A program made the translations under genes and the position numbers. Under the pieces are notes generated by a model. The model was not told where the DNA came from and did not search any database. It saw only the letters and a program-made list of their open reading frames with translations. From a virus, in IMG/VR virus record IMGVR_UViG_3300031669_000299, positions 1-20,448 of that record: a stretch of DNA of 20,448 bases; one strand, given 5' to 3'. How positions within the stretch are numbered: position 1 is the first letter of the stretch; every line of letters begins with the position of its first letter. Below, in pieces: positions 5,510 through 14,996 of this stretch.

Positions 5510-5511
5510 TC

Positions 5512-5844
5512 CTACTTGTCTCGCTTGGTGATGAGAGCTGTAAGCGCGTCCCAGAAGTGGGCACGAGCCATCAAGTGGAGGTACTTAGCGTCTTCCACAG
5601 CGACTTCAGCGCGGCGCTGTTCGAGGGGAAGAGTGAAGCTGTACTCAAACGCCATCTCAGCGGTGAGCGGGTCAACTTCCGGTTCTGGAGTTGGTTCTGG
5701 CTGCGGCACTCCACCATTCATCACAAGAAGGATGTTGGGATCGAGCTCAGACGGGTTAGAACCCGGAGCGTAGAGTGGCTCTTCTTTCATGAAGCCAGGA
5801 ACGATGAGCTCTTTGGCAGCGTATTCGTCAGGTGTCATTGGCAT
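5512..5844 (-). CDS. hypothetical protein just upstream of terL
   Basis: 110 aa with a Pro/Glu-rich linker (VPQPEPTPEPEVD) in the middle and a mostly helical, charged C-terminal half (LPLEQRRAEVAVEDAKYLHL). Position next to terL is where a small terminase subunit is often found, but no helix-turn-helix is evident and I do not claim that function. The start codon overlaps the previous stop as TAATG; a second ATG two codons in (5838) is an alternative. It is part of the packaging operon. Confidence 0.75.
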   Translation of the reverse strand: MPMTPDEYAAKELIVPGFMKEEPLYAPGSNPSELDPNILLVMNGGVPQPEPTPEPEVDPLTAEMAFEYSFTLPLEQRRAEVAVEDAKYLHLMARAHFWDALTALITKRDK

Positions 5845-6032
5845 TAGAAGCCCAGCCCTGGGATAGTCCCGTTGTCAGACATAACGATGCGGATCGCTTC
5901 TCGATAGACGATTTCTCGCTGGTCAGGGGTGGCCTGTGAAAGGTATGCAACCTGCCAGTCGTTGAGCCCAGCCCAACGAAGATCGTCGTCGGAGATCCGC
6001 ACGGGCAGAGTTCCTTCAGTGTCTACAGACAT
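5844..6032 (-). CDS. hypothetical small protein
   Basis: 62 aa beginning MSVDTEG. A longer frame from a GTG at 6059 exists, but AAAGGG lies 7 nt before the ATG at 6032 and that ATG overlaps a short ORF stop as TAATG, so 6032 is the better start. The segment DDDLRWAGLNDWQVAYLSQATPDQREIVYREAIRIV looks like two or three helices. No family recognised. It ends in a TAATG overlap with the next gene toward terL. Confidence 0.65.
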   Translation of the reverse strand: MSVDTEGTLPVRISDDDLRWAGLNDWQVAYLSQATPDQREIVYREAIRIVMSDNGTIPGLGF

Positions 6033-6079
6033 TATAGCGCCCTTTGAGCAAAAATCCACTCTTTAGATGTTTTACTCAT
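6032..6079 (-). CDS. 15-codon coupling mini-ORF
   Basis: The ATG at 6079 overlaps the stop of the gene upstream (TAATG). The frame reads MSKTSKEWIFAQRAL, then a TAA that itself overlaps the next ATG at 6032 (TAATG again). It therefore bridges two genes exactly, with no untranslated base. There is no good ribosome-binding site of its own. It may only keep ribosomes on the message; whether the peptide matters is unknown. Confidence 0.4.
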   Translation of the reverse strand: MSKTSKEWIFAQRAL

Positions 6080-6666
6080 TAAAGATCCGTCACCAACACA
6101 ATGCCCTCAGAGTTTCGCGTCTGCTGGCAGTACATGACGAACCGTTGGCGGTCGCACCCGATGGAACGCCACTCTTCGAAGTGCTCATCGCAGAAGCCGG
6201 ACTTCTGTGCCGGGAGCGGACAGTTGGCTTCGCAGGGGGCTGATGAAGTCTCACGCCTCTTCTTCTCTTCGGCGTAGAAGAGGTACTGTTGGCGCTCGAC
6301 TATCTTCGTGGACAGTGATTCAAGCTCGAACACCCAACGCTCCATCTCCCGGAGGTCCTCGCGGAAGGGGTCTCGGATGTGACGCTCGACATCGGGGCCG
6401 CCCCCCCGGCTGCTGTACCTCGACAGAACAGCGCGTTCGATGGGGGTGCTATCTGATCCACCGCCACGTGAGTTGATGACGATGCTGGATCCGGTCGCGG
6501 ACTTTGCGAAGGTGTCAGGCCCGATCTGGTCGCGGCGGAACAACTCCCCTAGCGCTGTCAGATCGATACGGCTGAGATTCTCGTTGGCCTTATCAAGGGA
6601 CTTAGAAGCTCTGGTGAGCCTTTCCTTCGACCGCTGATTGATTGATTTGGCTCCAATGGTAGCGAT
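6079..6666 (-). CDS. hypothetical protein with no normal start codon near its apparent N-terminus
   Basis: The only usual initiation codon near the 5' end is TTG at 6543 (154 aa), but a ribosome-binding-like AGGGGAG directly abuts it with no spacing. The frame stays open and looks coding for 41 more codons, up to the stop of the nuclease gene. That extension reads IATIGAKSINQRSKERL and then a coiled-coil-like LDKANENLSRID. GGGAG stands 8 nt before the ATC at 6666, so an ATC or ATT start (195 aa in the long form) or UGA readthrough from the upstream gene should be considered. The C-terminal part has Cys/His residues (PCEANCPLP, GFCDEHFEEW) that may bind zinc. No function assigned. Confidence 0.6.
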   Translation of the reverse strand: MATIGAKSINQRSKERLTRASKSLDKANENLSRIDLTALGELFRRDQIGPDTFAKSATGSSIVINSRGGGSDSTPIERAVLSRYSSRGGGPDVERHIRDPFREDLREMERWVFELESLSTKIVERQQYLFYAEEKKRRETSSAPCEANCPLPAQKSGFCDEHFEEWRSIGCDRQRFVMYCQQTRNSEGIVLVTDL

Positions 6667-7026
6667 TCACGCTTCTCCCTTACTTGCTTCTTGTTCTAGG
6701 CGGTTCAACTCGGCCACAATTGCTTTCGCGGCAGGGACAAGTTGATCCAGTGGGAGGGTTACATACGACTTTGATACGTTCTTGCGAATGCGCTTGTGAA
6801 CCACGGCGTAGGGCAAATCCACTCTGGCCCCTGAGCGCTCGGCCTGGTCGATCCACTCCGCAAGGGTCATGGACTTCTGGTTCTTCGCCTCCAGGACGAT
6901 GGGGAAGTTGACGAAATCCCCGTGTGGGCTTGAGAAGGGAGCCCGTTCGATGTCGGGGAAGATCGGCTTAAGCCAATCACGCACGTCTACCTCATATCCA
7001 GTGCCCTTAGCTCTTTGTTTGCTCAC
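6667..7026 (-). CDS. PD-(D/E)XK nuclease, Holliday-junction-resolvase-like
   Basis: 119 aa from a GTG at 7026 that overlaps the previous stop (TAGTG), with AGGGA 9 nt upstream. The sequence KQRAKGTGYEVDVRDWL, then ERAPFSSPHGDFVNF, then VLEAKNQ followed by TLAEWIDQAE fits the small actinophage nucleases annotated as Holliday junction resolvases. Asp in HGDF and Glu-x-Lys in EAK would be the PD-(D/E)XK metal-binding residues, and the helix before them carries the conserved Glu. Its expected job is to resolve branched DNA before packaging, consistent with its place beside terminase. An upstream extension of the frame is disfavoured by the overlap start. Confidence 0.75.
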   Translation of the reverse strand: MSKQRAKGTGYEVDVRDWLKPIFPDIERAPFSSPHGDFVNFPIVLEAKNQKSMTLAEWIDQAERSGARVDLPYAVVHKRIRKNVSKSYVTLPLDQLVPAAKAIVAELNRLEQEASKGEA

Positions 7027-7436
7027 TAACAAGCATCCCTGTCGCACATCACACAGCCGCCAACGCAGCATGAGGATTGCTCAGTGATCGGGTGAAGGAA
7101 TGTTATAGACGATCCACCAGGGGTCGGGTCTTCGGGCCCATCATCCCAAACATGTCCACACACTAAACAGGTGTACGCGAGAGGTCCCTCCTGGGATCCC
7201 TCAGGACGGATTCTGCCATTGAACTCGACACGCGGGTTCTTCCCCGGCTCAACGATCTCAATGGTTCTCACTTCAGACGGGATCTGCTTAACACCACATT
7301 TAGGGCACACCCAAGGTGTCTCGAACATTGTGATTGTGGAGGTTGCCGGAGGCGAAACGTTAGGTGGCCAGTAGCTTGGGACCCAAGGATTGGTGGGGAA
7401 AAAGTCTCCGACGTAGTAATCATGGCCAAGTGTCAT
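7026..7436 (-). CDS. Cys-rich zinc-ribbon protein
   Basis: 136 aa starting MTLGHDYYVGDF at the ATG that overlaps the preceding stop (TAATG); AGGGAG is 8 nt upstream. It has CPKCG near residue 43 and CLVCG near residue 90, a classic two-knuckle zinc ribbon split by a loop of about 45 residues. The C-terminus has seven more cysteines packed closely (SSCCVGGCVMCDRDAC). The N-terminus is rich in Pro, Trp and Tyr. No named family. A structural or nucleic-acid-binding role is possible. Confidence 0.75.
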   Translation of the reverse strand: MTLGHDYYVGDFFPTNPWVPSYWPPNVSPPATSTITMFETPWVCPKCGVKQIPSEVRTIEIVEPGKNPRVEFNGRIRPEGSQEGPLAYTCLVCGHVWDDGPEDPTPGGSSITFLHPITEQSSCCVGGCVMCDRDAC

Positions 7437-7681
7437 TACATAAGCTCCCTGAGAAATGCGTAAAGACCTTCCCACAGGATGGTTAATGGCCAACGCGCGG
7501 AGGACGAAAGAATATCGGGGAGAAAGCGCAGGTAGGTGATCGGGCGTCCCAACTCATCGGTCTGCAACCCTCGGGTGGCCTTCAGCTCGGCGCGTTTACG
7601 GTTGACCAGTGTAGACACGCGCACAAATACCGCCGCGAAGACGGTAAGGTAAACAGAAACGAGCCATTGTAACCAGGTCAT
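7436..7681 (-). CDS. small membrane protein
   Basis: 81 aa with an N-terminal membrane segment (LVSVYLTVFAAVFVRV, residues about 7-22), a basic stretch (NRKRAELKATR) that should stay in the cytoplasm, and an amphipathic C-terminus. No lysis family can be named. The ATG lies 7 nt after a TACAAT hexamer, the spacing of a leaderless transcript, and there is no real ribosome-binding site. It is the first gene of the overlapping chain that runs down to the portal. Confidence 0.65.
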   Translation of the reverse strand: MTWLQWLVSVYLTVFAAVFVRVSTLVNRKRAELKATRGLQTDELGRPITYLRFLPDILSSSARWPLTILWEGLYAFLRELM

Positions 7682-7688
7682 TACCTAA

Positions 7689-7694
7689 ATTGTA
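7689..7694 (-). promoter_or_regulatory. -10 element of probable leaderless promoter for the 7681 gene
   Basis: TACAAT, then TTAGGTA, then ATG. No clear -35 hexamer is seen. The distance puts transcription start at or next to the initiation codon. Confidence 0.45.
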
Positions 7695-7711
7695 CAGTGT
7701 CTTTCAACTCT

Positions 7712-7915
7712 TTACACGAGCTTGAGGAGCTGACTTCTCTTGAAGTGGGCGAACTCATAGGTACCCGTTCCGATCATCTCGGCTCCATACTCTTGCGTAG
7801 GGCTCTTACCGTTGCTCGACAGGACGATCTCTCGGATAATTCCGCGCTTGCCGGATGCCTTGGGCTTGATGATTACTTCTTCGTCCAGGCTGAATTCGGT
7901 TTCGTATGTGCTCAT
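7712..7915 (-). CDS. hypothetical protein, KOW-like size
   Basis: 67 aa starting MSTYETEFSLDEEV. An upstream in-frame extension runs back through the terminator and a tRNA gene, so it is not used. The composition EEVIIKPKASGKRGIIREIV and GTYEFAHFKRSQLLKLV suggests a small beta-barrel such as those of KOW/SH3-like proteins, but this is only an impression. There is no ribosome-binding site. A TATGCT hexamer 7 nt upstream suggests a leaderless message starting just after the tRNA operon terminator. Confidence 0.65.
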   Translation of the reverse strand: MSTYETEFSLDEEVIIKPKASGKRGIIREIVLSSNGKSPTQEYGAEMIGTGTYEFAHFKRSQLLKLV

Positions 7916-7922
7916 GGGTGTC

Positions 7923-7933
7923 AGCATAGCACA
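7923..7933 (-). promoter_or_regulatory. extended -10 of leaderless promoter for the 7915 gene
   Basis: TGTGCTATGCT followed by 7 nt and then ATG. The same TGTGCTATG string is found before the gene at 16789. The -35 region lies inside the terminator hairpin and shows no consensus. Confidence 0.45.
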
Positions 7934-7960
7934 AAAAAATCCCCTACCCGAAGGTAAGGG
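7933..7960 (-). terminator. rho-independent terminator of the tRNA operon
   Basis: On the minus strand CCCTTACC, loop TTCG, GGTAGGGG, then A and seven Ts. Seven of the eight stem positions are Watson-Crick and one is a mismatch. It follows the last tRNA (Ile-TAT) by a few bases. Confidence 0.85.
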
Positions 7961-7964
7961 AGAT

Positions 7965-8044
7965 TGGTGTGCCCTCCCCGAATTGAACGGGGCACCGAAT
8001 GGATATAAGCCACCCAGCCGCGACCAAGGCAGGCTCCAAGGCAC
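7965..8044 (-). tRNA. tRNA-Ile(TAT), reads AUA
   Basis: Acceptor GTGCCTT pairs with AGGGCAC; discriminator A and CCA are encoded. The D-stem AGCC/GGCT, anticodon loop CTTATAT and T-arm CCCCG-TTCAATT-CGGGG are all intact. The anticodon stem has two G-U pairs. It is the last tRNA before the terminator. Confidence 0.9.
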
Positions 8045-8046
8045 AT

Positions 8047-8117
8047 TGGTATCTCAGGAGTGAAACGAACACTCTCATCAGGGATATGAGCCCCGAGTCC
8101 GAACCATCGGCAGAGAT
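8047..8117 (-). tRNA. tRNA-Met(CAT), elongator-type, short D-arm
   Basis: Anticodon loop CTCATAT on a CGGGG/CCCTG stem; T-arm GAGTG/CACTC; encoded CCA. Only 71 nt: the region between acceptor and anticodon stem is a reduced CCG-ATGGTT-CGG D-arm. One T-T mismatch in the acceptor. Ile2 (lysidine) is an alternative, but AUA is already served by the TAT tRNA. Confidence 0.7.
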
Positions 8118-8122
8118 ATGAG

Positions 8123-8195
8123 TCGAGGTAGTAGGAGTCGAACCCACATTGAGGAGGTAGAAGCTCCCCGTCCTTATCCGTTAAACGATACCCCG
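8123..8195 (-). tRNA. tRNA-Arg(TCT), reads AGA/AGG
   Basis: Acceptor CGGGGTA/TACCTCG, anticodon stem GGGAG/CTCCT with loop CTTCTAC, T-arm GTGGG-TTCGACT-CCTAC. Discriminator A; CCA is not encoded (CTC follows). Confidence 0.9.
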
Positions 8196-8196
8196 G

Positions 8197-8274
8197 TGGC
8201 TTTGGGACTAGGCTTCGAACCTAGAAAAATCCTCTTTCAGAGAGAGGTGGGTCTACCAGTTCCCCCATCCCAAA
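8197..8274 (-). tRNA. tRNA-Gln(CTG), reads CAG
   Basis: Acceptor TTTGGGA/TCCCAAA, anticodon loop CTCTGAA on CCTCT/AGAGG, T-arm CTAGG/CCTAG. Discriminator G and encoded CCA. CAT stands directly before the 5' end. It abuts the Arg tRNA with one base between. Confidence 0.88.
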
Positions 8275-8290
8275 ATGGTCATAAAAGTGG

Positions 8291-8317
8291 CTTTAAGACT
8301 CTAAAAGATACTTAAAG
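8291..8317. repeat. inverted repeat between tRNA-Gln and tRNA-Ser
   Basis: CTTTAAG and CTTAAAG, 7-bp perfect arms with a 13-nt AT-rich loop. It lies in the 64-nt spacer and may be an RNA processing or pausing hairpin. Confidence 0.4.
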
Positions 8318-8338
8318 ATCACAATCATGTCTACTGCG

Positions 8339-8422
8339 CGGAAGACGGACTACTCGAAAATCATCCCTTGCGGGACCCATCGCTTAGCAAGCGAGTTCGG
8401 TACCCTGACCGATTCGCCTTCC
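8339..8422 (-). tRNA. tRNA-Ser(GCT), reads AGC/AGU
   Basis: Class II tRNA: acceptor GGAAGGC/GTCTTCC, anticodon loop TTGCTAA, long variable arm with TCCC-GCAA-GGGA, discriminator G. The outermost anticodon-stem and T-stem pairs are mismatched. CCA is not encoded (CGC follows). Confidence 0.85.
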
Positions 8423-8425
8423 ATG

Positions 8426-8467
8426 ATACTTCACTGTTCCACAAAAAGCCTTGGAACGATGAAGTAT
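8426..8467. repeat. 42-nt imperfect hairpin between tRNA genes
   Basis: Arms of 8 bp (ATACTTCA/TGAAGTAT) and 6 bp (GTTCCA/TGGAAC), separated by a 2-nt internal mismatch, close a 10-nt loop. It fills nearly the whole spacer between tRNA-Gln(TTG) and tRNA-Ser(GCT). No T-run follows, so it is more like a processing site than a terminator. Confidence 0.55.
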
Positions 8468-8470
8468 TAG

Positions 8471-8543
8471 CTGAGAGAGAAGGGGTCGAACCTCCACAGA
8501 CTGAGTTCAAAGCCCAGCGACCTGCCAATTAGTCTATCTCTCA
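8471..8543 (-). tRNA. tRNA-Gln(TTG), reads CAA
   Basis: Acceptor TGAGAGA/TCTCTCA, D-stem GAC/GTC, anticodon loop CTTTGAA on CTGGG/CTCAG, T-arm GGAGG-TTCGACC-CCTTC, discriminator G. CTA follows instead of CCA. CAT directly precedes the 5' end. Confidence 0.9.
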
Positions 8544-8693
8544 ATGCTTACTGCTCTATCTTGTGATTCTTCAGTCTATGCGTAGTCCCGAGCAAGCGGC
8601 GAAGATCCTTATGGATGTTGCTGCACCAACAGCTCTCCTTGCCGCAACGCCTTTCGCGCCCCCTGCGCTCGCTTTTGAATGTCCTACTCATAG

Positions 8694-8767
8694 TCCTGCT
8701 GGCGGGATTCGAACCCACAACTCTGGAGGTTTGAGCTCCAAGCCTCTACCGATTGGGCCACATCAGG
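8694..8767 (-). tRNA. tRNA-Leu(CAA) by anticodon, short variable loop
   Basis: Anticodon stem TGGAG/CTCCA with loop CTCAAAC gives CAA (codon UUG). T-arm GTGGG-TTCGAAT-CCCGC. The variable loop is only GAGTT, unlike normal bacterial Leu tRNAs. Acceptor CCTGATG/CAGCAGG has one A-G mismatch; discriminator A. No encoded CCA. Confidence 0.75.
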
Positions 8768-8775
8768 TTGTTCTC

Positions 8776-8820
8776 TTTACCTTTTGACATAAATATGCAA
8801 GATTTGCATTTAAAGGTAAA
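8776..8820. repeat. nested AT-rich inverted repeat with TATGCAA motif
   Basis: Outer arms TTTACCTTT/AAAGGTAAA (9 bp) and inner arms AAATATGCAA/TTGCATTT. TATGCAA occurs again at 8836 and 8855. On the minus strand TTGCAT, 16 nt, CATAAT (8835-8862) could be a promoter for the tRNAs to the left. The 225-nt spacer 8768-8991 holds no other gene I can support. Confidence 0.45.
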
Positions 8821-8991
8821 AATGTAAAGCACCATTATGCAAATTCTGCACTTTTATGCAAGGTGCAATATATTACATCTTAACTCACCTTACGTGCAGT
8901 ACAACGATCATTACGACCGTACTGATTCTACCACATCGGGGGAGAAAACCCCATCAAATGGATCAAAACCGCACGATCATACTGATTTCAG

Positions 8992-9074
8992 CGGAGAGCA
9001 GAGGTGTCGATCCCCCATCCTTTCAGAGCGTCCCTGTTTTCAAGACAGGTTGGCAGGCCGCTGCCGTGCTCTCC
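8992..9074 (-). tRNA. tRNA-Ser(TGA), reads UCA/UCG
   Basis: Acceptor GGAGAGC/GCTCTCC, anticodon stem CCTGT/ACAGG with loop CTTGAAA, long variable region, T-stem GGGGG/CCTCT with loop ATCGACA (A54 instead of T54). Discriminator G; no encoded CCA. Confidence 0.85.
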
Positions 9075-9163
9075 ATACAATGCCGGGATATCCCCACTTA
9101 ACGCAATGTCGGGATTTAAGCACATCGTGCATCATTGGACAATGTGCCTAAACCACAACATCG

Positions 9164-9241
9164 AGGCGCAGATCGGATTCGAACCGATGATGATAAAACG
9201 GGTTTGCAATCCGTCGCTTTCAGCCGCTCAGCCACCGCGCC
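9164..9241 (-). tRNA. tRNA-Cys(GCA)
   Basis: Acceptor GGCGCGG/CTGCGCC with discriminator T, the CysRS identity base. Anticodon loop TTGCAAA, T-arm ATCGG-TTCGAAT-CCGAT. One A-C mismatch closes the anticodon stem. CGA trailer; CAT leader. Confidence 0.88.
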
Positions 9242-9327
9242 ATGGAGTGCGGCCCCTAGGTTATCGGGCAAGCCGACCTGCCAGTTGCGAAAACCCCTCC
9301 GCTATACCTGATCGACACCGCACTTCG

Positions 9328-9411
9328 TAGGCATAAGGAGACTTGAACTCCTACTCCCTTTCGGGAACAACCACCTCAAGGTTGCGCGTCTGCCAATTTC
9401 GCCATACGCCT
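9328..9411 (-). tRNA. tRNA-Leu(GAG), class II
   Basis: Acceptor AGGCGTA/TATGCCT, discriminator A. Anticodon stem CAACC/GGTTG with loop TTGAGGT. Long variable arm TTCCC-GAAA-GGGAG, T-arm AGGAG-TTCAAGT-CTCCT. This is a normal leucine architecture, unlike the three other Leu-anticodon tRNAs here. CGAAG trailer. Confidence 0.9.
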
Positions 9412-9476
9412 ATTGTTGCAGCAGCCGGAAAACGGTGGCCTACCGACGACACTCCTGTGCGCCGACTACTGCTTCG

Positions 9477-9550
9477 TACAAGTGGAGAGATTCGAACTCC
9501 CGACAAACTGGTTCTAAGCCAGTCACCTCTAGCCGCTGGGTTACACTTGC
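9477..9550 (-). tRNA. tRNA-Leu(TAG) by anticodon, short variable loop
   Basis: Acceptor GCAAGTG/CACTTGT, anticodon stem ACTGG/CCAGT with loop CTTAGAA (codon CUA), variable loop TTGTC, T-arm GGGAG-TTCGAAT-CTCTC, discriminator A, trailer CGAAG, leader CAT. Its 5' end is copied in the tandem repeat upstream. Confidence 0.82.
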
Positions 9551-9553
9551 ATG

Positions 9554-9627
9554 TTGCTGATATTCGCAAACTGTGACCATTGTGTCACACTTGCTGATAT
9601 TCGTAAGCTGTGACAGCTCTGTCACAC
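9554..9627. repeat. two tandem 37-bp repeats, each with a hairpin
   Basis: Units 9554-9590 and 9591-9627 start TTGCTGATATTCG and end GTCACAC. They differ at a few bases in the hairpin loop region, but each keeps a TGTGAC/GTCACA inverted repeat (8-bp arms in the second). Both are followed by ACACTTGC-like sequence equal to the 5' end of tRNA-Leu(TAG). Confidence 0.8.
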
Positions 9628-9688
9628 TTGCATGTTGTACAACTTGACTGACGAAAAGCAACAGGTTCTACTTTTGTCACTAACATCG

Positions 9689-9762
9689 TACTGATCCAGG
9701 GATTCGAACCCTGACTGAAAGGGGTTTAAGCCCTCTCCCTCTGCCAATTGGGGTACATCAGT
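9689..9762 (-). tRNA. tRNA-Leu(TAA) by anticodon, short variable loop
   Basis: Anticodon stem GAGGG/CCCTT with loop CTTAAAC reads UUA. D-stem CCCC/GGGA, variable loop TCAGT, T-arm CAGGG-TTCGAAT-CCCTG. Acceptor ACTGATG/GATCAGT has a G-G mismatch at 7-66. Discriminator A; trailer CGATG; leader CAT. UUA is the rare bldA codon if the host is Streptomyces. Confidence 0.82.
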
Positions 9763-9844
9763 ATGTCGCCGTCCACTCTCGGATACGGCTATGTGTCACA
9801 CCACTCCGCAGGTGTCGCGTAGAGCTAGTCTTTGCCGAAGACAG

Positions 9845-9918
9845 TGGAGAAGGTGGAATTCGAATCCACGGCTTCCGCATTGCAAGTGCGGCACTCTGGC
9901 CAACTGAGTTACAACCCC
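9845..9918 (-). tRNA. tRNA-Ala(TGC)
   Basis: Anticodon stem CCGCA/TGCGG with loop CTTGCAA; T-arm GTGGA-TTCGAAT-TCCAC. G3-U70, the AlaRS identity pair, is present, but acceptor pairs 5 and 6 are T-T mismatches. Discriminator A; leader CAT. Confidence 0.82.
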
Positions 9919-9932
9919 ATGTTTACTGCTAG

Positions 9933-10005
9933 TGGAGATACGGCGATTTGAACGCCGGACCCTTTCGATGCCATCGAAATGCTCTACCAACTGAGCTACA
10001 TCCCC
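9933..10005 (-). tRNA. tRNA-Ala(GGC)
   Basis: Acceptor GGGGATG/TATCTCC with the G3-U70 identity pair, anticodon stem TTTCG/CGAAA with loop ATGGCAT, T-arm CGGCG-TTCAAAT-CGCCG, discriminator A. Confidence 0.92.
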
Positions 10006-10064
10006 ATTGGGTTTGCCGGGAGAAGGGAAGAAAAGATCAATTAAAGACCCTTCCCCCGGCACCG

Positions 10065-10137
10065 TGGTCCCCCTCAGGATCGAACTGAAACCGACAGGAT
10101 TTCAAGCTGCCGTGCTTACCAATTACACCAAAGGACC
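10065..10137 (-). tRNA. tRNA-Phe(GAA)
   Basis: Acceptor GGTCCTT/GGGGACC, D-stem GTGT/GCAC, T-arm TTCAG-TTCGATC-CTGAG, discriminator A. Loop TTGAAAT gives GAA. The innermost anticodon-stem pair is C-C, so the loop may be 9 nt; an offset reading would give TGA, but base counting from the D-arm supports Phe. Confidence 0.78.
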
Positions 10138-10241
10138 ATGTGCCCAGACTATCCCTTCGTCCTCCAGGCTGTTCCGACTCCTTACGTCTTTGTCGGACTA
10201 CCACATCAGCAGACACCGTGTTGCACACGGCACTTACCTAG

Positions 10242-10313
10242 TACACAGCGAGGGACTCGAACCCCCAGCCTTCTCGGTGTAAACGAGTTGCGCTTCCATT
10301 GCGCCAGCCGTGC
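10242..10313 (-). tRNA. tRNA-Val(TAC)
   Basis: Acceptor GCACGGC/GCTGTGT, anticodon loop TTTACAC on ACTCG/CGAGA (outer A-A mismatch), T-arm GGGGG-TTCGAGT-CCCTC, discriminator A. CTA follows. It is the only Val tRNA seen. Confidence 0.87.
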
Positions 10314-10398
10314 ATAAGGGCAGTGAATTTCACCCCTGGCTTTTTTCATTACCAGGGCCATAGAGCGCTCTCACGGGCACCCCAAGGACTACCTCCAG

Positions 10399-10472
10399 TC
10401 TCCCCGGACAGATTCGAACTGCCGCCGATGACTTCGTAGGTCATAATTCTTGATCCACTAAACTACAAGGAG
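10399..10472 (-). tRNA. tRNA-Arg(ACG), reads CGN after A34 editing
   Basis: Acceptor CTCCTTG/CGGGGAG, anticodon stem ATGAC/GTCAT with loop CTACGAA, T-arm GGCAG-TTCGAAT-CTGTC, discriminator A. The D-stem is weak. A34 would need host TadA to become inosine. Leader CAT. Confidence 0.85.
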
Positions 10473-10560
10473 ATGTCCCCGTCTCTCCGGAGCGCCAAGT
10501 CTTTATCCGAGTAACATCAGGACGAATCCTGAATCCGTGGCTAGTTTGACTTTCTACTAG

Positions 10561-10634
10561 TAGTGGTAAAGAGTCTCGAACTCCTGGCCTTCTCGGTATC
10601 AGCGAGATGCTCTAACCAACTGAGCTACACCACT
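10561..10634 (-). tRNA. tRNA-Ile(GAT)
   Basis: Acceptor AGTGGTG/TACCACT, D-arm GCTC-AGTTGGTTA-GAGC, anticodon stem TCTCG/CGAGA with loop CTGATAC, T-stem AGGAG/CTCTT, discriminator A, leader CAT. Confidence 0.92.
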
Positions 10635-10703
10635 ATGCTTTGCTACTTTGTCCAAGTTGGCACTAACTCACATTTTCCGTGAACTCCTGCCATCTTGCAC
10701 AAC

Positions 10704-10780
10704 TGGGGTGAAAGACGAGGTTCGAACTCGCTTCCTCCGGGGTCACATCCCGGCGTTCATCCACATGAACTTCTATCACC
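10704..10780 (-). tRNA. tRNA-His(GTG) with G-1
   Basis: The extra 5' G (10780) pairs with discriminator C73, the HisRS identity feature. Anticodon stem CCGGG/CCCGG with loop ATGTGAC, T-arm GCGAG-TTCGAAC-CTCGT, encoded CCA. One T-T mismatch in the acceptor. The CAT leader begins exactly before G-1. Confidence 0.92.
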
Positions 10781-10876
10781 ATGTGAAGCGAGGAGAGTGT
10801 CCGTACACAGCGGTGTCTCCATGGATTCCGGTCGTGCTGTGTGCGTGCCTTCATTCCATCTTTTCACTTCAAAATC

Positions 10877-10905
10877 AACTTACCACATTCTTGCGAACCT
10901 GTCAA
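10877..10905 (-). promoter_or_regulatory. internal promoter in the tRNA operon, upstream of tRNA-His
   Basis: ACTTGACA with TTGACA at 10900-10905, 17 nt, then TGG-TAAGTT (extended -10 type). The -35 is perfect and the -10 hexamer is weak. The 135-nt gap it lies in has no tRNA. Confidence 0.5.
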
Positions 10906-10915
10906 GTCTTTTTCG

Positions 10916-10984
10916 CAGGGAAGGCAGAAATCGAATCCACCTTGGAGGTTTTGGAGACCTCTCGTTCACCTTGAACACTTCCCT
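10916..10984 (-). tRNA. tRNA-Trp(CCA)
   Basis: Perfect acceptor AGGGAAG/CTTCCCT, anticodon stem GAGGT/ACCTC with loop CTCCAAA, T-stem GTGGA/TCTGC, discriminator G as expected for Trp. D-arm is a small GTTC-AAGGT-GAAC. 69 nt. Leader CAT. Confidence 0.9.
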
Positions 10985-10996
10985 ATGCTTACTACT

Positions 10997-11082
10997 TGGT
11001 CGAAGGAGAGGGATTTGAACCCCCAGTGTATCTTACGTCACTGTTTTACAGGCAGCTTGCTTCACCGTTTGCATACCCTTCG
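10997..11082 (-). tRNA. tRNA-Tyr(GTA), class II
   Basis: Acceptor CGAAGGG/TCCTTCG, anticodon loop CTGTAAA (innermost pair C-A), long variable region of about 15 nt, T-arm GGGGG-TTCAAAT-CCCTC, discriminator A and encoded CCA. Confidence 0.88.
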
Positions 11083-11163
11083 TTGTGCCCGTCTCTCCAG
11101 GTGTGTCGCGCCTTTAGCTGACGTTTGCTGCCGATTCCTAGGGTTGCCCCGTCTTCGGCATCG

Positions 11164-11235
11164 CTGTCCAAGAAGGGCTCGAACCTTCAACCTAGCGATT
11201 AACAGTCGCTTGCTCCGCCATTGAGCTACTGGACA
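11164..11235 (-). tRNA. tRNA-Asn(GTT)
   Basis: Acceptor TGTCCAG/TTGGACA, anticodon stem AGCGA/TCGCT with loop CTGTTAA, T-arm GAAGG-TTCGAGC-CCTTC, discriminator G. Leader CAT. Confidence 0.92.
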
Positions 11236-11253
11236 ATGCTTACTTCTTACTAC

Positions 11254-11329
11254 TGGTGCCTCCGGTAGGTTACGATCCCACTCGCTTCGGATTAAAAGTC
11301 CGCTGCTCTTCCGATTGAGCTACAAAGGC
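11254..11329 (-). tRNA. tRNA-Lys(TTT)
   Basis: Acceptor GCCTTTG/CGGAGGC, loop CTTTTAA, T-stem GTGGG/CCTAC with loop ATCGTAA (A54), discriminator A, encoded CCA, leader CAT. The outer anticodon-stem pair is G-A. Confidence 0.88.
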
Positions 11330-11330
11330 A

Positions 11331-11406
11331 TGGTCCTCCAGGACGGACATGATCCGCCGACCTTGCGATTAAGAGTCGCCTGCTCTTCCGGCTGAGCTAC
11401 TAGAGG
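11331..11406 (-). tRNA. tRNA-Lys(CTT)
   Basis: Acceptor CCTCTAG/CTGGAGG, loop CTCTTAA, T-stem GGCGG/CCGTC with loop ATCATGT, discriminator A, encoded CCA. One base separates it from tRNA-Lys(TTT). Confidence 0.87.
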
Positions 11407-11474
11407 ATAATCAGTTAGTCGTGCTTACCCCATGTTACACCATCTCCATGCGTTACGTACCCGCATCTTGGAGA

Positions 11475-11490
11475 CCAAGTATGGACTTGG
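11475..11490. repeat. short perfect hairpin in tRNA spacer
   Basis: CCAAGT-ATGG-ACTTGG, 6-bp arms and a 4-nt loop, between tRNA-Pro and tRNA-Lys(CTT). Probably an RNA stem; no T-run. Confidence 0.4.
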
Positions 11491-11499
11491 ACCTACTAC

Positions 11500-11577
11500 T
11501 GGTCTAGTTAGAGGGATTCGAACCCCCGACTTCTCGGACCCAAACCGAGCGCTCTGGCCAAACTGAGCTACAACTAG
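11500..11577 (-). tRNA. tRNA-Pro(TGG)
   Basis: Acceptor CTAGTTG/TAACTAG, anticodon stem CTCGG/CCGAG with loop TTTGGGT, T-arm GGGGG-TTCGAAT-CCCTC, discriminator A, encoded CCA, leader CAT shared with the end of the adjoining half-tRNA. Confidence 0.93.
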
Positions 11578-11580
11578 ATG

Positions 11581-11670
11581 ACGGATGCTCTACCCGCTGA
11601 GCTACCGACCCCTCCGCCCTTAATAGGGGCTATGGAACCGAGGCGGACTCGAACCACCGACCTTCCGAAC
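11581..11670 (-). pseudogene. permuted tRNA unit X: 3' half (11634-11670) precedes 5' half (11581-11611)
   Basis: On the minus strand a T-arm half comes first: TCGGA (39-43), AGGTC, GGTGG-TTCGAGT-CCGCC, acceptor TCGGTTC and C73. A 22-nt linker follows, then a 5' half: GGGTCGG, TA, D-arm GCTC-AGCGGGTA-GAGC, A, TCCGT. The two halves fit each other: GGGTCGG pairs with TCGGTTC over 7 bp (four G-U), and TCCG pairs with CGGA. CAT stands at both unit borders. The anticodon loop cannot be rebuilt. It may be a permuted tRNA gene or recombination debris. Confidence 0.55.
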
Positions 11671-11745
11671 ATGACGGTGCTCTACCAATTGAGCTACACC
11701 GGGGATCTCTCCCCAGCGACAGGACTCGAACCTGCAACCTCCGTC
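11671..11745 (-). pseudogene. permuted tRNA unit Y: 3' half (11711-11745) precedes 5' half (11671-11703)
   Basis: After the CGA trailer of tRNA-Asp comes a 3' half: GACGG (39-43), AGGTT, GCAGG-TTCGAGT-CCTGT, acceptor CGCTGGG, G73. A 7-nt linker follows, then a 5' half: CCCGGTG, TA, GCTC-AATTGGTA-GAGC, A, CCGTC, AT. The acceptor halves pair 7 of 7 (two G-U), and CCGTC pairs perfectly with GACGG. Halves cover positions 1-33 and 39-73; nucleotides 34-38, the anticodon, are missing unless flanking bases are used. The 5' half joins directly to the 3' half of unit X. Confidence 0.6.
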
Positions 11746-11748
11746 TCG

Positions 11749-11822
11749 CGCCGTTGAAGGGGTACGATCCCTCTGTCTCTAGATTGACAATCTAGCGCCT
11801 TTACCACTTAGGCTACAACAGC
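11749..11822 (-). tRNA. tRNA-Asp(GTC)
   Basis: Acceptor GCTGTTG/CAACGGC, discriminator G (Asp identity), anticodon stem CTAGA/TCTAG with loop TTGTCAA, T-stem GAGGG/CCCTT with loop ATCGTAC. Leader CAT, trailer CGA. Confidence 0.92.
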
Positions 11823-11883
11823 ATGTGAAGTAGGCTGGGCCTCCAATGGCCCTAAGCGACACAGCATTGCCGCGCCTACATCG

Positions 11884-11955
11884 TACTGTCAGGGAGAATT
11901 GAACTCCCGTTACCTGGTTGAGAACCAGGCGTCATAACCGCTAGACCATGACAGC
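11884..11955 (-). tRNA. tRNA-Glu(CTC)
   Basis: Acceptor GCTGTCA/TGACAGT, anticodon stem CCTGG/CCAGG with loop TTCTCAA, T-arm GGGAG-TTCAATT-CTCCC, discriminator A. Leader CAT, trailer CGATG. Confidence 0.92.
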
Positions 11956-12062
11956 ATGTACTTCAAAAAGAGCGGCGGTGGCTGCCTCTCCCACCTCCCT
12001 CCGCAGACGCCGCGCGACGCTATTCTGTGAAGGAAACGAGTTGAACGTTTATCTCCGCTTCG

Positions 12063-12135
12063 TACTGTGTATGGGATTCGAACCCATGATCTTCTGATTG
12101 AAAGTCAGAGGACTTAACCGCTAATCGAACACAGC
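12063..12135 (-). tRNA. tRNA-Glu(TTC)
   Basis: Acceptor GCTGTGT/ACACAGT, anticodon stem TCTGA/TCAGA with loop CTTTCAA, T-arm ATGGG-TTCGAAT-CCCAT, discriminator A. Leader CAT, trailer CGAAG. Confidence 0.93.
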
Positions 12136-12147
12136 ATGTTTACTACT

Positions 12148-12223
12148 TGGACCAGTAGACCGGATTCGAACCGACACCGAAGGCTTGGAAGGCGCTCGTG
12201 CTAACCGTTAACACCACTACTGG
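12148..12223 (-). tRNA. tRNA-Gly(TCC)
   Basis: Perfect acceptor CCAGTAG/CTACTGG, discriminator T, encoded CCA. Anticodon loop CTTCCAA; the middle anticodon-stem pair is C-C. T-stem GTCGG/CCGGT. Confidence 0.87.
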
Positions 12224-12276
12224 ATAATTGCCGGGGGAGCAGCCACACTGTGGTATTCGACTTCCCCGACTTCAAA

Positions 12277-12306
12277 ACTGTACTGCACGCTTCCCCCCGC
12301 TGTCAA
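12277..12306 (-). promoter_or_regulatory. internal promoter in the tRNA operon, upstream of tRNA-Gly(TCC)
   Basis: AAATACTTGACA with TTGACA at 12301-12306, 18 nt, then TACAGT. The 115-nt gap 12224-12338 is otherwise without a gene; G-rich and C-rich blocks at its ends can pair in the leader. Confidence 0.5.
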
Positions 12307-12338
12307 GTATTTCTCATGACAATCAGGTTACAACGTAG

Positions 12339-12409
12339 AGTCTCAGGAGGGAGTTGAACCCTCGCCCCAACCTTGGCAAGGTTGAATTCTGCCGCTGAAC
12401 TACTAAGAC
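12339..12409 (-). tRNA. tRNA-Gly(GCC)
   Basis: Acceptor GTCTTAG/CTGAGAC, anticodon stem CAACC/GGTTG with loop TTGCCAA, T-arm GAGGG-TTCAACT-CCCTC, discriminator T. CTA follows. Confidence 0.92.
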
Positions 12410-12492
12410 AAGGCCGTCTCTCCGGCAGTCACGCCTACCCAGGGGCGTTCCTAGTGATCAGCCCCGCTCCTAGGAGGTAGGTAACCACTTCG

Positions 12493-12564
12493 ATCCGCAA
12501 GAAGGGAACGATCCTTCTCCTCCACGTTACCAACGTGGCGTGCTGCCTTTATCACCATCACGGA
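12493..12564 (-). tRNA. tRNA-Thr(GGT)
   Basis: Acceptor TCCGTGA/TTGCGGA, anticodon stem CCACG/CGTGG with loop TTGGTAA, T-stem GAAGG/CCTTC with loop ATCGTTC, discriminator T, leader CAT. Confidence 0.9.
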
Positions 12565-12576
12565 ATGCTTCACTAC

Positions 12577-12650
12577 TGGATCCCCGAGCGGGAGTCGAAC
12601 CCACGCCGCTGGTTTACGAAACCAGGGTTCTGCCACTGAACTACCAGGGA
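12577..12650 (-). tRNA. tRNA-Thr(CGT)
   Basis: Acceptor TCCCTGG/TCGGGGA, anticodon stem CTGGT/ACCAG with loop TTCGTAA, T-arm GTGGG-TTCGACT-CCCGC, discriminator T, encoded CCA, leader CAT. Confidence 0.92.
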
Positions 12651-12655
12651 ATGCG

Positions 12656-12729
12656 GGCCGCTAGAGAGATTCGAACTCCCGACCACTCGCTTACAAGGCG
12701 AACGCTCTGGCCAACTGAGCTACAACGGC
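12656..12729 (-). tRNA. tRNA-Thr(TGT)
   Basis: Acceptor GCCGTTG/TAGCGGC, anticodon stem TTCGC/GCGAG with loop CTTGTAA, T-arm GGGAG-TTCGAAT-CTCTC, discriminator C. Confidence 0.9.
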
Positions 12730-12830
12730 ACTGTTAATGCAAAAATCCTGACTTCCAAGTTACCAACCCCTCCCAAGGTTAGGCAGCTCTTCCGCCAGGA
12801 TTTAAGACTTTTCCTATTGCTAGGACTTAG

Positions 12831-12906
12831 AGGCGGAAGTTGGATTCGAACCAACGTTCTGAACGTAATGAGCGTTCCGAGATAGACCAGGCTTCTCCAT
12901 TCCGCG
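12831..12906 (-). tRNA. tRNA-fMet(CAT), initiator-like
   Basis: First pair of the acceptor is a C-C mismatch (CGCGGAA against TTCCGCC), the hallmark of a bacterial initiator. D-arm GAGA-AGCCTGGTCTA-TCTC. Anticodon loop CTCATTA on GAACG/CGTTC, without the usual three G-C pairs of initiators. T-arm GTTGG-TTC-CCAAC. First tRNA of the operon. Confidence 0.82.
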
Positions 12907-12913
12907 ACGCTTA

Positions 12914-13210
12914 TTACTTCACTGCTTTACTTCCTACTGCGGGCACTACTGGGGTCTTCGGCTGGAGTAGAATTCCCAGCAACCAACCCATCTTCGGGAA
13001 CCTTGTTTCGGCCCACTGGATCGCCGCATGGTATGTCCCCGCGAGCGCGAGCGCTAAGCCCGCGAATTGGCCCTTATTAAAGTGGGCCCACTTCGAATAG
13101 AAGTACGAAGCCACAAGACCAACGGCACCCGTAATGATTGTACGAATTGTCGCACGCACACGGGTGGTAAATATTGAGTTTGTGGGCTGCGCCACTACAG
13201 GAGTCGTCAT
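12914..13210 (-). CDS. small membrane protein heading the tRNA operon
   Basis: 98 aa. Two likely membrane segments: TIITGAVGLVASYFY (residues about 24-38) and GQFAGLALALAGTYHAAI (about 47-64), joined by a short basic loop. Length and two-helix layout could fit a holin or another phage membrane protein, but no family is clear. The ATG follows a good promoter -10 by 6 nt with no ribosome-binding site, so the message is probably leaderless. It ends 7 nt before tRNA-fMet and is presumably co-transcribed with the tRNAs. Confidence 0.7.
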   Translation of the reverse strand: MTTPVVAQPTNSIFTTRVRATIRTIITGAVGLVASYFYSKWAHFNKGQFAGLALALAGTYHAAIQWAETRFPKMGWLLGILLQPKTPVVPAVGSKAVK

Positions 13211-13216
13211 GCTTAC

Positions 13217-13245
13217 AATATAGCATGGGTTTTTCTGTTTGTCCA
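13217..13245 (-). promoter_or_regulatory. promoter of the leftward tRNA operon (leaderless)
   Basis: TGGACA (13240-13245), 17 nt, TATATT (13217-13222), then 6 nt to the ATG at 13210. Both hexamers match 5 of 6. Transcription should start at the ATG. Confidence 0.75.
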
Positions 13246-14063: not shown

Positions 14064-14996
14064 ATGACCAAGCGTATATATGTCGCCGGTCCCATGAGGG
14101 GATACGAGAAGTGGAATTTTCCTGCGTTTGACAGGAACGCTGAATTCCTCGCGAGCCTGGGATGGGATCCGGTGTCACCGGCTGATCTTGACCGGCAGAT
14201 GGGCTTTGACGAGAACGACGACACGGTGGTGTTCGGTGAGGCTGAGTTCCACGAGGCGATGCTTCGTGACTACGAGGCCATCCTACGCTGTGACGCCATT
14301 GCCTTCATCCCCGGCTGGGAAAAGTCAACGGGGGCGGCGTTGGAGCGATCATTCGCCAGTCGCCTGAAGCTCGATATGTATCGGGTTGACGCCGACAATG
14401 CCTATCTGGAGAAGGAGCTCGTCATCGGCCTGACTGGGTATGCCCAGAGTGGGAAGAACACCTTGGCCGACATCCTCTCCAGTAACTACGGATTTGAGCA
14501 GCGTGCATTCGCTGATTCTCTCCGTGGCATCCTGTACGCACTTAACCCTCGTCTCCCCGAGCCCGACTGGGCGGAGGTTGGCGATGGGTTCGGGAACACT
14601 GGGGTTGTGCGTGTCCATGACTACATCGACAAGTACGGTTGGGAGTATGCGAAGGAGAACGTCCCTGAGGTTCGCCAACTGCTCCAGCGCCTTGGCACTG
14701 AGGGCGGTCGAACTTTCCTGGGCGAGAACGTGTGGGTGGATGGGCTCTTCAACAAGCCTCACGCTGCGCGACTCGTCACTACGGACTGCCGCTTCCCTTC
14801 TGAAATCTCTGCGGTCAAGGAACGTGATGGCGTCGTGATCCGTGTAGAGCGCAATGGGTATGGCCCAGTCAACAGCCACGTTTCTGAGACTGCTTCCCTG
14901 GGCCTTGAAGACTTCATGGTTCACAACGATGGAGAAATCTGGGAGATGGAAGAGCAAGTCTTAGAAGGACTTCGTGAGAGAGGTGTGAAACTCTGA
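14064..14996 (+). CDS. DUF4406 / deoxynucleoside monophosphate kinase fusion
   Basis: 310 aa in two domains. Residues 1-110: YVAGPMRGYEKWNFPAFDR and the CDAIAFIPGWEKSTGAALE strand-helix are the pattern of DUF4406, related to nucleoside 2-deoxyribosyltransferases. Residues about 119-310: IGLTGYAQSGKNTLADIL with a P-loop GYAQSGKNT (125-133), then DCRFPSE and GPVNSHVSE, resemble phage dNMP kinases of the T4 gp1 kind, which make dNDPs from dNMPs. Each part is full length, so this is a true fusion and not a frameshift. It should feed phage DNA synthesis. A GAGG lies 7 nt before the ATG. Confidence 0.82.
   Translation: MTKRIYVAGPMRGYEKWNFPAFDRNAEFLASLGWDPVSPADLDRQMGFDENDDTVVFGEAEFHEAMLRDYEAILRCDAIAFIPGWEKSTGAALERSFASRLKLDMYRVDADNAYLEKELVIGLTGYAQSGKNTLADILSSNYGFEQRAFADSLRGILYALNPRLPEPDWAEVGDGFGNTGVVRVHDYIDKYGWEYAKENVPEVRQLLQRLGTEGGRTFLGENVWVDGLFNKPHAARLVTTDCRFPSEISAVKERDGVVIRVERNGYGPVNSHVSETASLGLEDFMVHNDGEIWEMEEQVLEGLRERGVKL

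Follow-up and report, generated by a model that had tools for sequence, protein, structure and literature searches.

The tRNA array in this stretch of viral DNA (20,448 nucleotides, referred to in full as the window) may do two things at once. On an evenly balanced judgment, we read it as a phage-encoded replacement tRNA pool with an embedded, non-decoding tRNA mimic that could act as a decoy, with the mechanism inferred from sequence features. It comprises 34 minus-strand tRNA genes within 4.9 kb and, between tRNA-Asp and tRNA-Pro, two tandem, circularly permuted tRNA-like modules (11581-11745, minus strand).

Composition and integrity of the tRNA array

The initial annotation had placed 34 tRNA genes on the minus strand between positions 7965 and 12906, and ARAGORN bore out their number, strand and span. 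Default settings returned 30 tRNAs for 18 amino acids, with Ser and Trp absent; lowering the threshold to 95% and 90% added exactly four (Met-CAT, Ser-TGA, Trp-CCA, and Ser-GCT), and with these counted the claim of all 20 amino acids by anticodon holds. The 15.5 kb outside the array yielded no calls at the 90% threshold, at which shuffled windows gave 0.6 calls per window. A 35th call at 90% (tRNA-???, 11634-11727) was the permuted element misread as a tRNA.

Searched over the array stretch alone, Rfam model RF00005 scored 28 of the tRNAs above its gathering cutoff and did not list Ile-TAT, Gln-CTG, the Met tRNA at 8047, both Ser tRNAs, or Trp, of which Trp matched tRNA-Sec weakly. For all six, some relative has a tRNA at the syntenic position that ARAGORN calls at default, and at least one counterpart each of Ile-TAT, Gln-CTG, Met, Trp, and Ser exceeds the Rfam cutoff. 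Encoded CCA is missing in 24 of 34 genes; U33 is present in all, with at least four of five anticodon-stem pairs and at least five of seven acceptor-stem pairs formed. The pseudo-tRNAs that the initial annotation had raised as a possible source of amino acid gaps are therefore not the rule, no amino acid is lost, and the 34 tRNAs are structurally sound. The tRNA genes and modules, 5' to 3' on the minus strand, followed by two candidate flanking signals, are as follows (ARAGORN default calls unless stated; L numbers denote related lineages).

12830..12906, minus, tRNA-Met CAT, initiator-like, first gene of array; also Rfam; near-identical first gene in L010 and L026
12655..12729, minus, tRNA-Thr TGT
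12577..12650, minus, tRNA-Thr CGT
12492..12564, minus, tRNA-Thr GGT
12338..12409, minus, tRNA-Gly GCC
12148..12223, minus, tRNA-Gly TCC
12062..12135, minus, tRNA-Glu TTC
11883..11955, minus, tRNA-Glu CTC
11748..11822, minus, tRNA-Asp GTC
11673..11745, minus, permuted tRNA-like module 1; descriptor and covariation; kept in L009, L010, and L026
11581..11668, minus, permuted tRNA-like module 2; descriptor and covariation; kept in L009, missing in L010 and L026
11500..11577, minus, tRNA-Pro TGG
11331..11406, minus, tRNA-Lys CTT
11254..11329, minus, tRNA-Lys TTT
11163..11235, minus, tRNA-Asn GTT
10997..11082, minus, tRNA-Tyr GTA
10915..10984, minus, tRNA-Trp CCA, short D-arm; sub-default; near-identical L026 tRNA-Trp called at default
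10704..10779, minus, tRNA-His GTG
10560..10634, minus, tRNA-Ile GAT
10398..10472, minus, tRNA-Arg ACG
10241..10313, minus, tRNA-Val TAC
10064..10137, minus, tRNA-Phe GAA
9932..10005, minus, tRNA-Ala GGC
9844..9918, minus, tRNA-Ala TGC
9688..9762, minus, tRNA-Leu TAA, short variable loop
9476..9550, minus, tRNA-Leu TAG, short variable loop
9327..9411, minus, tRNA-Leu GAG
9163..9241, minus, tRNA-Cys GCA
8991..9074, minus, tRNA-Ser TGA; sub-default; Ser-TGA at matching site in L011
8693..8767, minus, tRNA-Leu CAA, short variable loop
8470..8543, minus, tRNA-Gln TTG
8338..8422, minus, tRNA-Ser GCT; sub-default; Ser-GCT at matching site in L011 and L026
8197..8274, minus, tRNA-Gln CTG; syntenic L009 Gln-CTG above Rfam cutoff
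8122..8195, minus, tRNA-Arg TCT
8047..8117, minus, tRNA CAT, second Met (elongator-like or Ile2); sub-default; counterpart in L009 and L026
7965..8044, minus, tRNA-Ile TAT, last gene of array; syntenic L009 Ile-TAT at 54.0 bits, above Rfam cutoff
7940..7961, minus, intrinsic-terminator-like hairpin with T7 tail directly after the last tRNA; such matches not above chance overall
13217..13245, minus, sigma-70-like promoter upstream of small ORF 12914-13210; such matches not above chance overall

The small ORF at 12914-13210 precedes the array.

Decoding capacity and proposed replacement of the host pool

If U34 reads whole family boxes (superwobble), 60 of 61 sense codons are readable, the sole exception being CGG (20 of the 3649 codons used), and common codons, including AAG, GAC, and TTC, each have a cognate tRNA in the array. 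The further claim of an initiator stands in part: the Met tRNA at 12830-12906 shows two of three hallmarks, an unpaired position 1-72 (C1xC72) and A11-U24 (D-stem GAGA/TCTC), and lacks the three anticodon-stem G-C pairs (GGG/CCC), its stem being GAACG/CGTTC. These pairs are likewise absent from the initiator-like Met tRNAs of L010 and L026.

Gene order is near-identical in three relatives (L009/G001, L010/G002, and L026/G007); L026 apparently has no Glu tRNA, so the full set is not strictly kept among them. A "tRNA-Pyl" in L010 and L011 is more likely a misframed Arg-TCT, judging by its loop and synteny. One relative encodes RNase P RNA within its tRNA array; BLAST matches of the L009 RNase P region to other phages proved to be matches of the flanking Met tRNA. 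Megablast of the window found no match among phage records and only a 40-base tRNA-Pro match among plasmids, and a search for prophage portal genes in bacterial genomes, made to find the host, returned none.

With 60 of 61 codons readable and gene order kept in relatives, this near-complete set is better explained as a substitute for the host pool than as a remedy for a few rare codons, a conclusion that is partly supported. Phage tRNAs rescue translation from PtuAB and PrrC (PMC11555353) and have been proposed to evade anticodon nucleases (PMC10264068). The 34 tRNAs, probably carried on one long transcript, would read nearly every codon and may allow phage translation to continue despite cleavage or depletion of the host's tRNAs. 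An alternative hypothesis is that the tRNAs tune the host pool to phage codon use instead of replacing it. The phage has ~55% G+C and a GC3 of 0.65, a compensating tendency has been shown in the full-set phage XacN1 (PMC5852040), and in one survey larger tRNA sets accompanied a larger G+C difference from the host (PMC13015707). However, codon compensation predicts a selective set for host-rare codons, whereas here almost every codon is covered, common ones too, making it a rather unlikely account of this array.

Full sets are rare, as the initial annotation had it, but known: a full-amino-acid array is by itself not new, with a precedent in Xanthomonas phage XacN1, which like the window covers all 20 amino acids, using 56 tRNA genes (PMC5852040). 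XacN1 differs in being a jumbo phage with tRNA processing proteins, terminal repeats, and an unrelated host group, and the available part of that report describes no permuted tRNA-like RNA (PMC5852040). The tRNA array units of mycobacteria, mycobacteriophages, and plasmids are similarly dense, cover 19-20 amino acids, and have a proposed anti-defense role, as here, but hold 26-27 tRNAs compared to 34; the available part of their description mentions no Y-RNA-like RNA (PMC12803027).

A permuted tRNA-like element between tRNA-Asp and tRNA-Pro

Module 1 consists of a closing stem (GACGG/CCGTC), a T-arm, an 8-bp acceptor hairpin with a 6-nt loop, and a D-arm; in module 2, the acceptor hairpin has a 21-nt loop. 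Module 1 begins 2 nt past tRNA-Asp, and module 2 stops 3 nt short of tRNA-Pro. The initial annotation did not mention this element. Besides the window, a structural descriptor matched in L009, L010, and L026, in each case in the gap separating the Asp and Pro genes, against a background of 0.01 hits per shuffled 5 kb. A third hit in the window (~12045, between the two Glu tRNAs) was attributed to chance, as relatives have a different spacer there or almost none, and the hit ends in a terminator-like T run. No further lineage was recovered with a DNA pattern built on the junction of tRNA-Asp and the module, its other hits being coding or unrelated tRNA sequence.

Covariation was assessed across six modules from four lineages. 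The closing stem forms 28 of 30 possible pairs, a level reached in 1 of 720 permutations; for the acceptor stem the figures are 46 of 48 and 2 of 720. In the four sequences of module 1, pairing extends to 96.5% of cells, compared to 41-52% when the partner is slid, and six pairs have changed on both sides. The modules retain the tRNA elbow (T-loop, D-loop, U8, and variable loop) together with a stem of the anticodon type that is maintained by covariation, with no conserved anticodon. Module-1 acceptor loops are 4-7 nt and lineage-specific (AGAGAT, TGAAAAT, GGAAAC, and CTTG), none with CCA. With a CCA-less loop closing the acceptor end and no conserved anticodon, the modules should be neither chargeable nor decoding. 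Stable RNAs C and D in the tRNA cluster of phage T4 may be comparable, in that they too are small non-tRNA RNAs, without an assigned role, among phage tRNA genes.

Permuted tRNA genes are thought to originate by tandem duplication with loss of the outer halves. The element could be a dead by-product of such an event, in which overwritten outer halves leave a 3' half, spacer, and 5' half that pair at birth and have no function. Tandem ordinary tRNAs also match weakly (32.2 bits to YrlA and 50.4 bits to a model of the modules), so that these scores alone are unspecific, and neither L010 nor L026 has module 2. A relic would decay, however, whereas the closing and acceptor stems differ among lineages yet stay paired, and the element occupies one fixed site in four lineages, which share 76-87% portal-protein identity with the window. 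We consider a functionless relic possible but doubtful.

Resemblance to YrlA and a putative decoy

The best Rfam match in the stretch was YrlA (RF02553), and the best outside matches of the module model were the YrlA RNAs of two Ro60-bearing phages (63.5 and 63.1 bits). Weak YrlA matches in other phages, e.g., Salmonella phage 19, were junctions of ordinary or partial tRNAs, and the YrlA score alone was dropped as evidence for that reason. YrlA, a bacterial Y RNA, has a tRNA-mimic domain with the fold of the modules, sharing their core sequence and the permuted order of T-arm, acceptor hairpin, D-arm, and closing stem, which would suit a true Y RNA acting with a host or phage Ro60 protein. That identity is nonetheless improbable: the match scored 37.3 bits against a family gathering threshold of 69, and YrlA has an outer Ro60-binding helix, whereas the window element is tandem, lies inside a tRNA array, and leaves no room for a long outer helix between tRNA-Asp and tRNA-Pro. 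In L080 and L082, used as positive controls, such a helix encloses the YrlA RNA. The TROVE (Ro60) gene, found in both YrlA-bearing phages, was absent from seven related contigs of 10-47 kb, all fragments, so that a distant Ro60 gene is possible.

A permuted tRNA gene, its product circularized and cleaved by RNase P into a working tRNA, is a very improbable identity for the element: the 3'-before-5' order and complementary stems match those of algal and archaeal permuted tRNA genes, all tRNA stems fit, and one relative has RNase P RNA in its array, but those genes have a usable acceptor end and a conserved anticodon, whereas module-1 loops are short, lack CCA, and differ by lineage, the would-be anticodon-loop nucleotides lack conservation, and the L009 module has a base other than U at position 33.

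Under the reading of a replacement pool with an embedded mimic, the mimic would act in trans, tying up proteins that bind tRNAs at the elbow, and most plausibly would compete as a decoy for a nuclease directed at tRNAs, although no such nuclease was seen. The tRNA-like domain of YrlA has likewise been proposed to act as a decoy (PMC7790460). More tentatively, we speculate that the tandem element is a new type of anti-defense RNA, a mimic without anticodon loop or free 3' end that binds and withholds host proteins which cleave or sense tRNAs, with the 34 tRNAs replacing those cut; as part of the same tentative proposal, it may derive from, or have converged with, the YrlA tRNA-like domain, freed from Ro60. 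The element would then be a natural case of a tRNA mimic of the Y-RNA type that functions independently of Ro60. At default thresholds it escapes both Rfam and tRNA scanners, and it may therefore be overlooked elsewhere. The purpose of phage-borne tRNAs has been argued over for decades, and a nearly self-sufficient decoding set beside a conserved, non-decoding elbow mimic offers a compact test of that purpose.

Integrity and decoding range of the tRNA array

At its default threshold, ARAGORN called 30 tRNAs in the 20,448-base IMG/VR virus contig, all on the minus strand at 7965-12906; Ser and Trp were missing, so that a default scan would label the set incomplete. The gaps between tRNAs were read by eye, and ARAGORN was then repeated at 95% and 90% of threshold, which gained four genes:

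8047-8117, minus strand: tRNA-Met (CAT)
8338-8422, minus strand: tRNA-Ser (GCT)
8991-9074, minus strand: tRNA-Ser (TGA)
10915-10984, minus strand: tRNA-Trp

At 90%, there were no calls across the 15.5 kb of the window outside the array and 0.6 calls per shuffled window, false calls setting in at 85%. The count of 34 in the initial annotation is therefore exact (ARAGORN at 90% of threshold), and its concern over pseudo-tRNAs is allayed: U33 is present in every one of the 34, and none has fewer than four pairs in the anticodon stem or five in the acceptor. Rfam passes 28 of the 34; each of the other six is matched at the same order position in a relative by ARAGORN at default, and for most of these the relatives' counterparts pass Rfam too. 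Encoded CCA is missing in 24 of the 34. Short motifs recur in the array's spacers, for example AGTAGTAARCAT downstream of CCA-bearing tRNAs and GGAGAGACGG upstream of some tRNAs.

If wobble is of the ordinary bacterial kind and U34 can pair across entire family boxes, the 34 tRNAs can decode 60 of 61 sense codons, leaving only CGG (20 of 3649 codons in predicted genes); uncovered codons amount to 9% if U34 is limited to A and G. Codon compensation is a rival explanation for such an array. The proposed initiator is upheld in part: the first gene of the array, a tRNA-Met nearly identical in the related contigs L010 and L026, has the initiator-like C1xC72 and A11-U24, but the three G-C pairs are missing. 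A second CAT tRNA lies at 8047-8117. AUA is read by a tRNA-Ile with anticodon UAU (7965-8044), unusual in bacteria, which normally read this codon with a lysidine-modified CAU. Three of the four Leu tRNAs called by ARAGORN are 75 nt long with a short variable loop (8693-8767, 9476-9550, 9688-9762), unlike normal bacterial tRNA-Leu, which is class II; Leu-GAG is the only 85-nt tRNA-Leu of the window.

Related phages and the probable host

Same-group contigs were collected by TerL and portal searches. Array order is almost unchanged in three of them (L009, L010 and L026), L015 is near-identical to L009, and portal proteins of array-bearing relatives share 76-87% identity with that of the window. 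Small gene gains and losses include a duplicated block in L009 and the seeming loss of Glu from L026. The tRNA set is intact, conserved and nearly complete. The nearest TerL matches, from Arthrobacter phages (~33%), and the sole near DNA match among plasmids, a tRNA-Pro of the actinobacterium Frondihabitans, point to a likely actinobacterial host. On a 450-kb Frondihabitans sucicola plasmid (NZ_AP027733.1), 17 tRNA genes are clustered at 4742-8710.

The tRNA array of L009/L015 also encodes a class A RNase P RNA of full length, which scores 203.9 bits against a cut-off of 100:

L009 6264-6604, plus strand: RNase P RNA
G001:C1:36749-37089, minus strand: RNase P RNA in the record paired with L009

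It was not found in the window or in 21 other searched related-phage records; it would be noteworthy for a phage to encode this RNA. The L009 array also contains an HNH endonuclease gene (1477-2241), possibly a homing endonuclease, and L009 has at 3305-3381 a tRNA-like gene whose acceptor has ~11 pairs and whose anticodon loop is 6 nt long; ARAGORN assigns it no amino acid. TerL frames in L010 and two further relatives, L011 and L012, are ~903 aa versus 532, with an intein-like insert past GGAASGGK that is absent in the window. One window frame (14064-14996) fuses a DUF4406/nucleoside 2-deoxyribosyltransferase-like domain to a deoxynucleotide monophosphate kinase, and a similar fusion occurs in the contig of L010.

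A permuted tRNA-like element between tRNA-Asp and tRNA-Pro

A conserved permuted tRNA-like RNA sits inside the array, between tRNA-Asp and tRNA-Pro (11745-11581, minus strand). ARAGORN at 90% reads it as a nonsense tRNA; by our reading of the sequence, it comprises two tandem modules:

11673-11745, minus strand: module 1
11581-11668, minus strand: module 2

Each runs from a closing-stem strand through AGGTY, the T-arm and the acceptor 3' strand to a short loop, followed by the acceptor 5' strand, TA, the D-arm, A and the other closing-stem strand. Such an order amounts to a tRNA whose anticodon loop has been opened and whose acceptor end has been closed. A descriptor search, which returned 0.01 matches per shuffled 5-kb array, recovered the permuted form at the same Asp-Pro site as two modules in L009 and one each in L010 and L026; remaining matches were unconvincing junctions of other sequence.

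Over six modules, closing stems form 28 of 30 standard pairs against a mean of 20.3 when 3' strands are dealt among modules, and acceptor stems 46 of 48 against 28.0; the observed pairing was reached by 1 and 2 of 720 permutations, respectively. When only the first module of each phage is considered (four in all), paired cells make up 96.5%, both partners have changed in six pairs, and sliding the partner by 1-3 columns lowers pairing to 41-52%. These statistics overstate independence because the modules are related, but they clearly favor the permuted structure. The element might alternatively be a duplication relic or a permuted tRNA gene that matures.

Another rival is a Ro60-bound Y RNA. 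The YrlA match in Rfam is 37.3 bits, below the cut-off of 69, and a model built from the modules finds its best outside matches in the YrlA RNAs of phages L080 and L082. Ordinary tRNA junctions also score under that model (50.4 bits in Salmonella phage 19), and bit scores alone were therefore set aside as evidence. The YrlA-type Y RNAs (L080 4502-4571; L082 4427-4495) accompany a Ro60/TROVE gene in each phage and have a long outer helix, whereas the window's element has no such helix; a Ro60 gene was not found in seven related contigs.

A putative decoy

The array tRNAs and the permuted mimic are probably co-transcribed; a promoter-like site (13245-13217) and a terminator-like hairpin (7961-7940), both on the minus strand, would fit this, although such matches are not above chance. 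Processing of tRNA-Asp at its 3' end, together with cleavage of tRNA-Pro by RNase P, could then free the mimic. Phage tRNAs would replace host tRNAs while the mimic might act as a decoy, an idea drawn from the suggestion that the uncut YrlA tRNA-like domain could be a competitive inhibitor of an anticodon nuclease (PMC7790460) and from rescue experiments in which phage tRNAs countered PtuAB and PrrC (PMC11555353). Arrays of this type are already known; it is the permuted tandem element that sets this locus apart and deserves follow-up.
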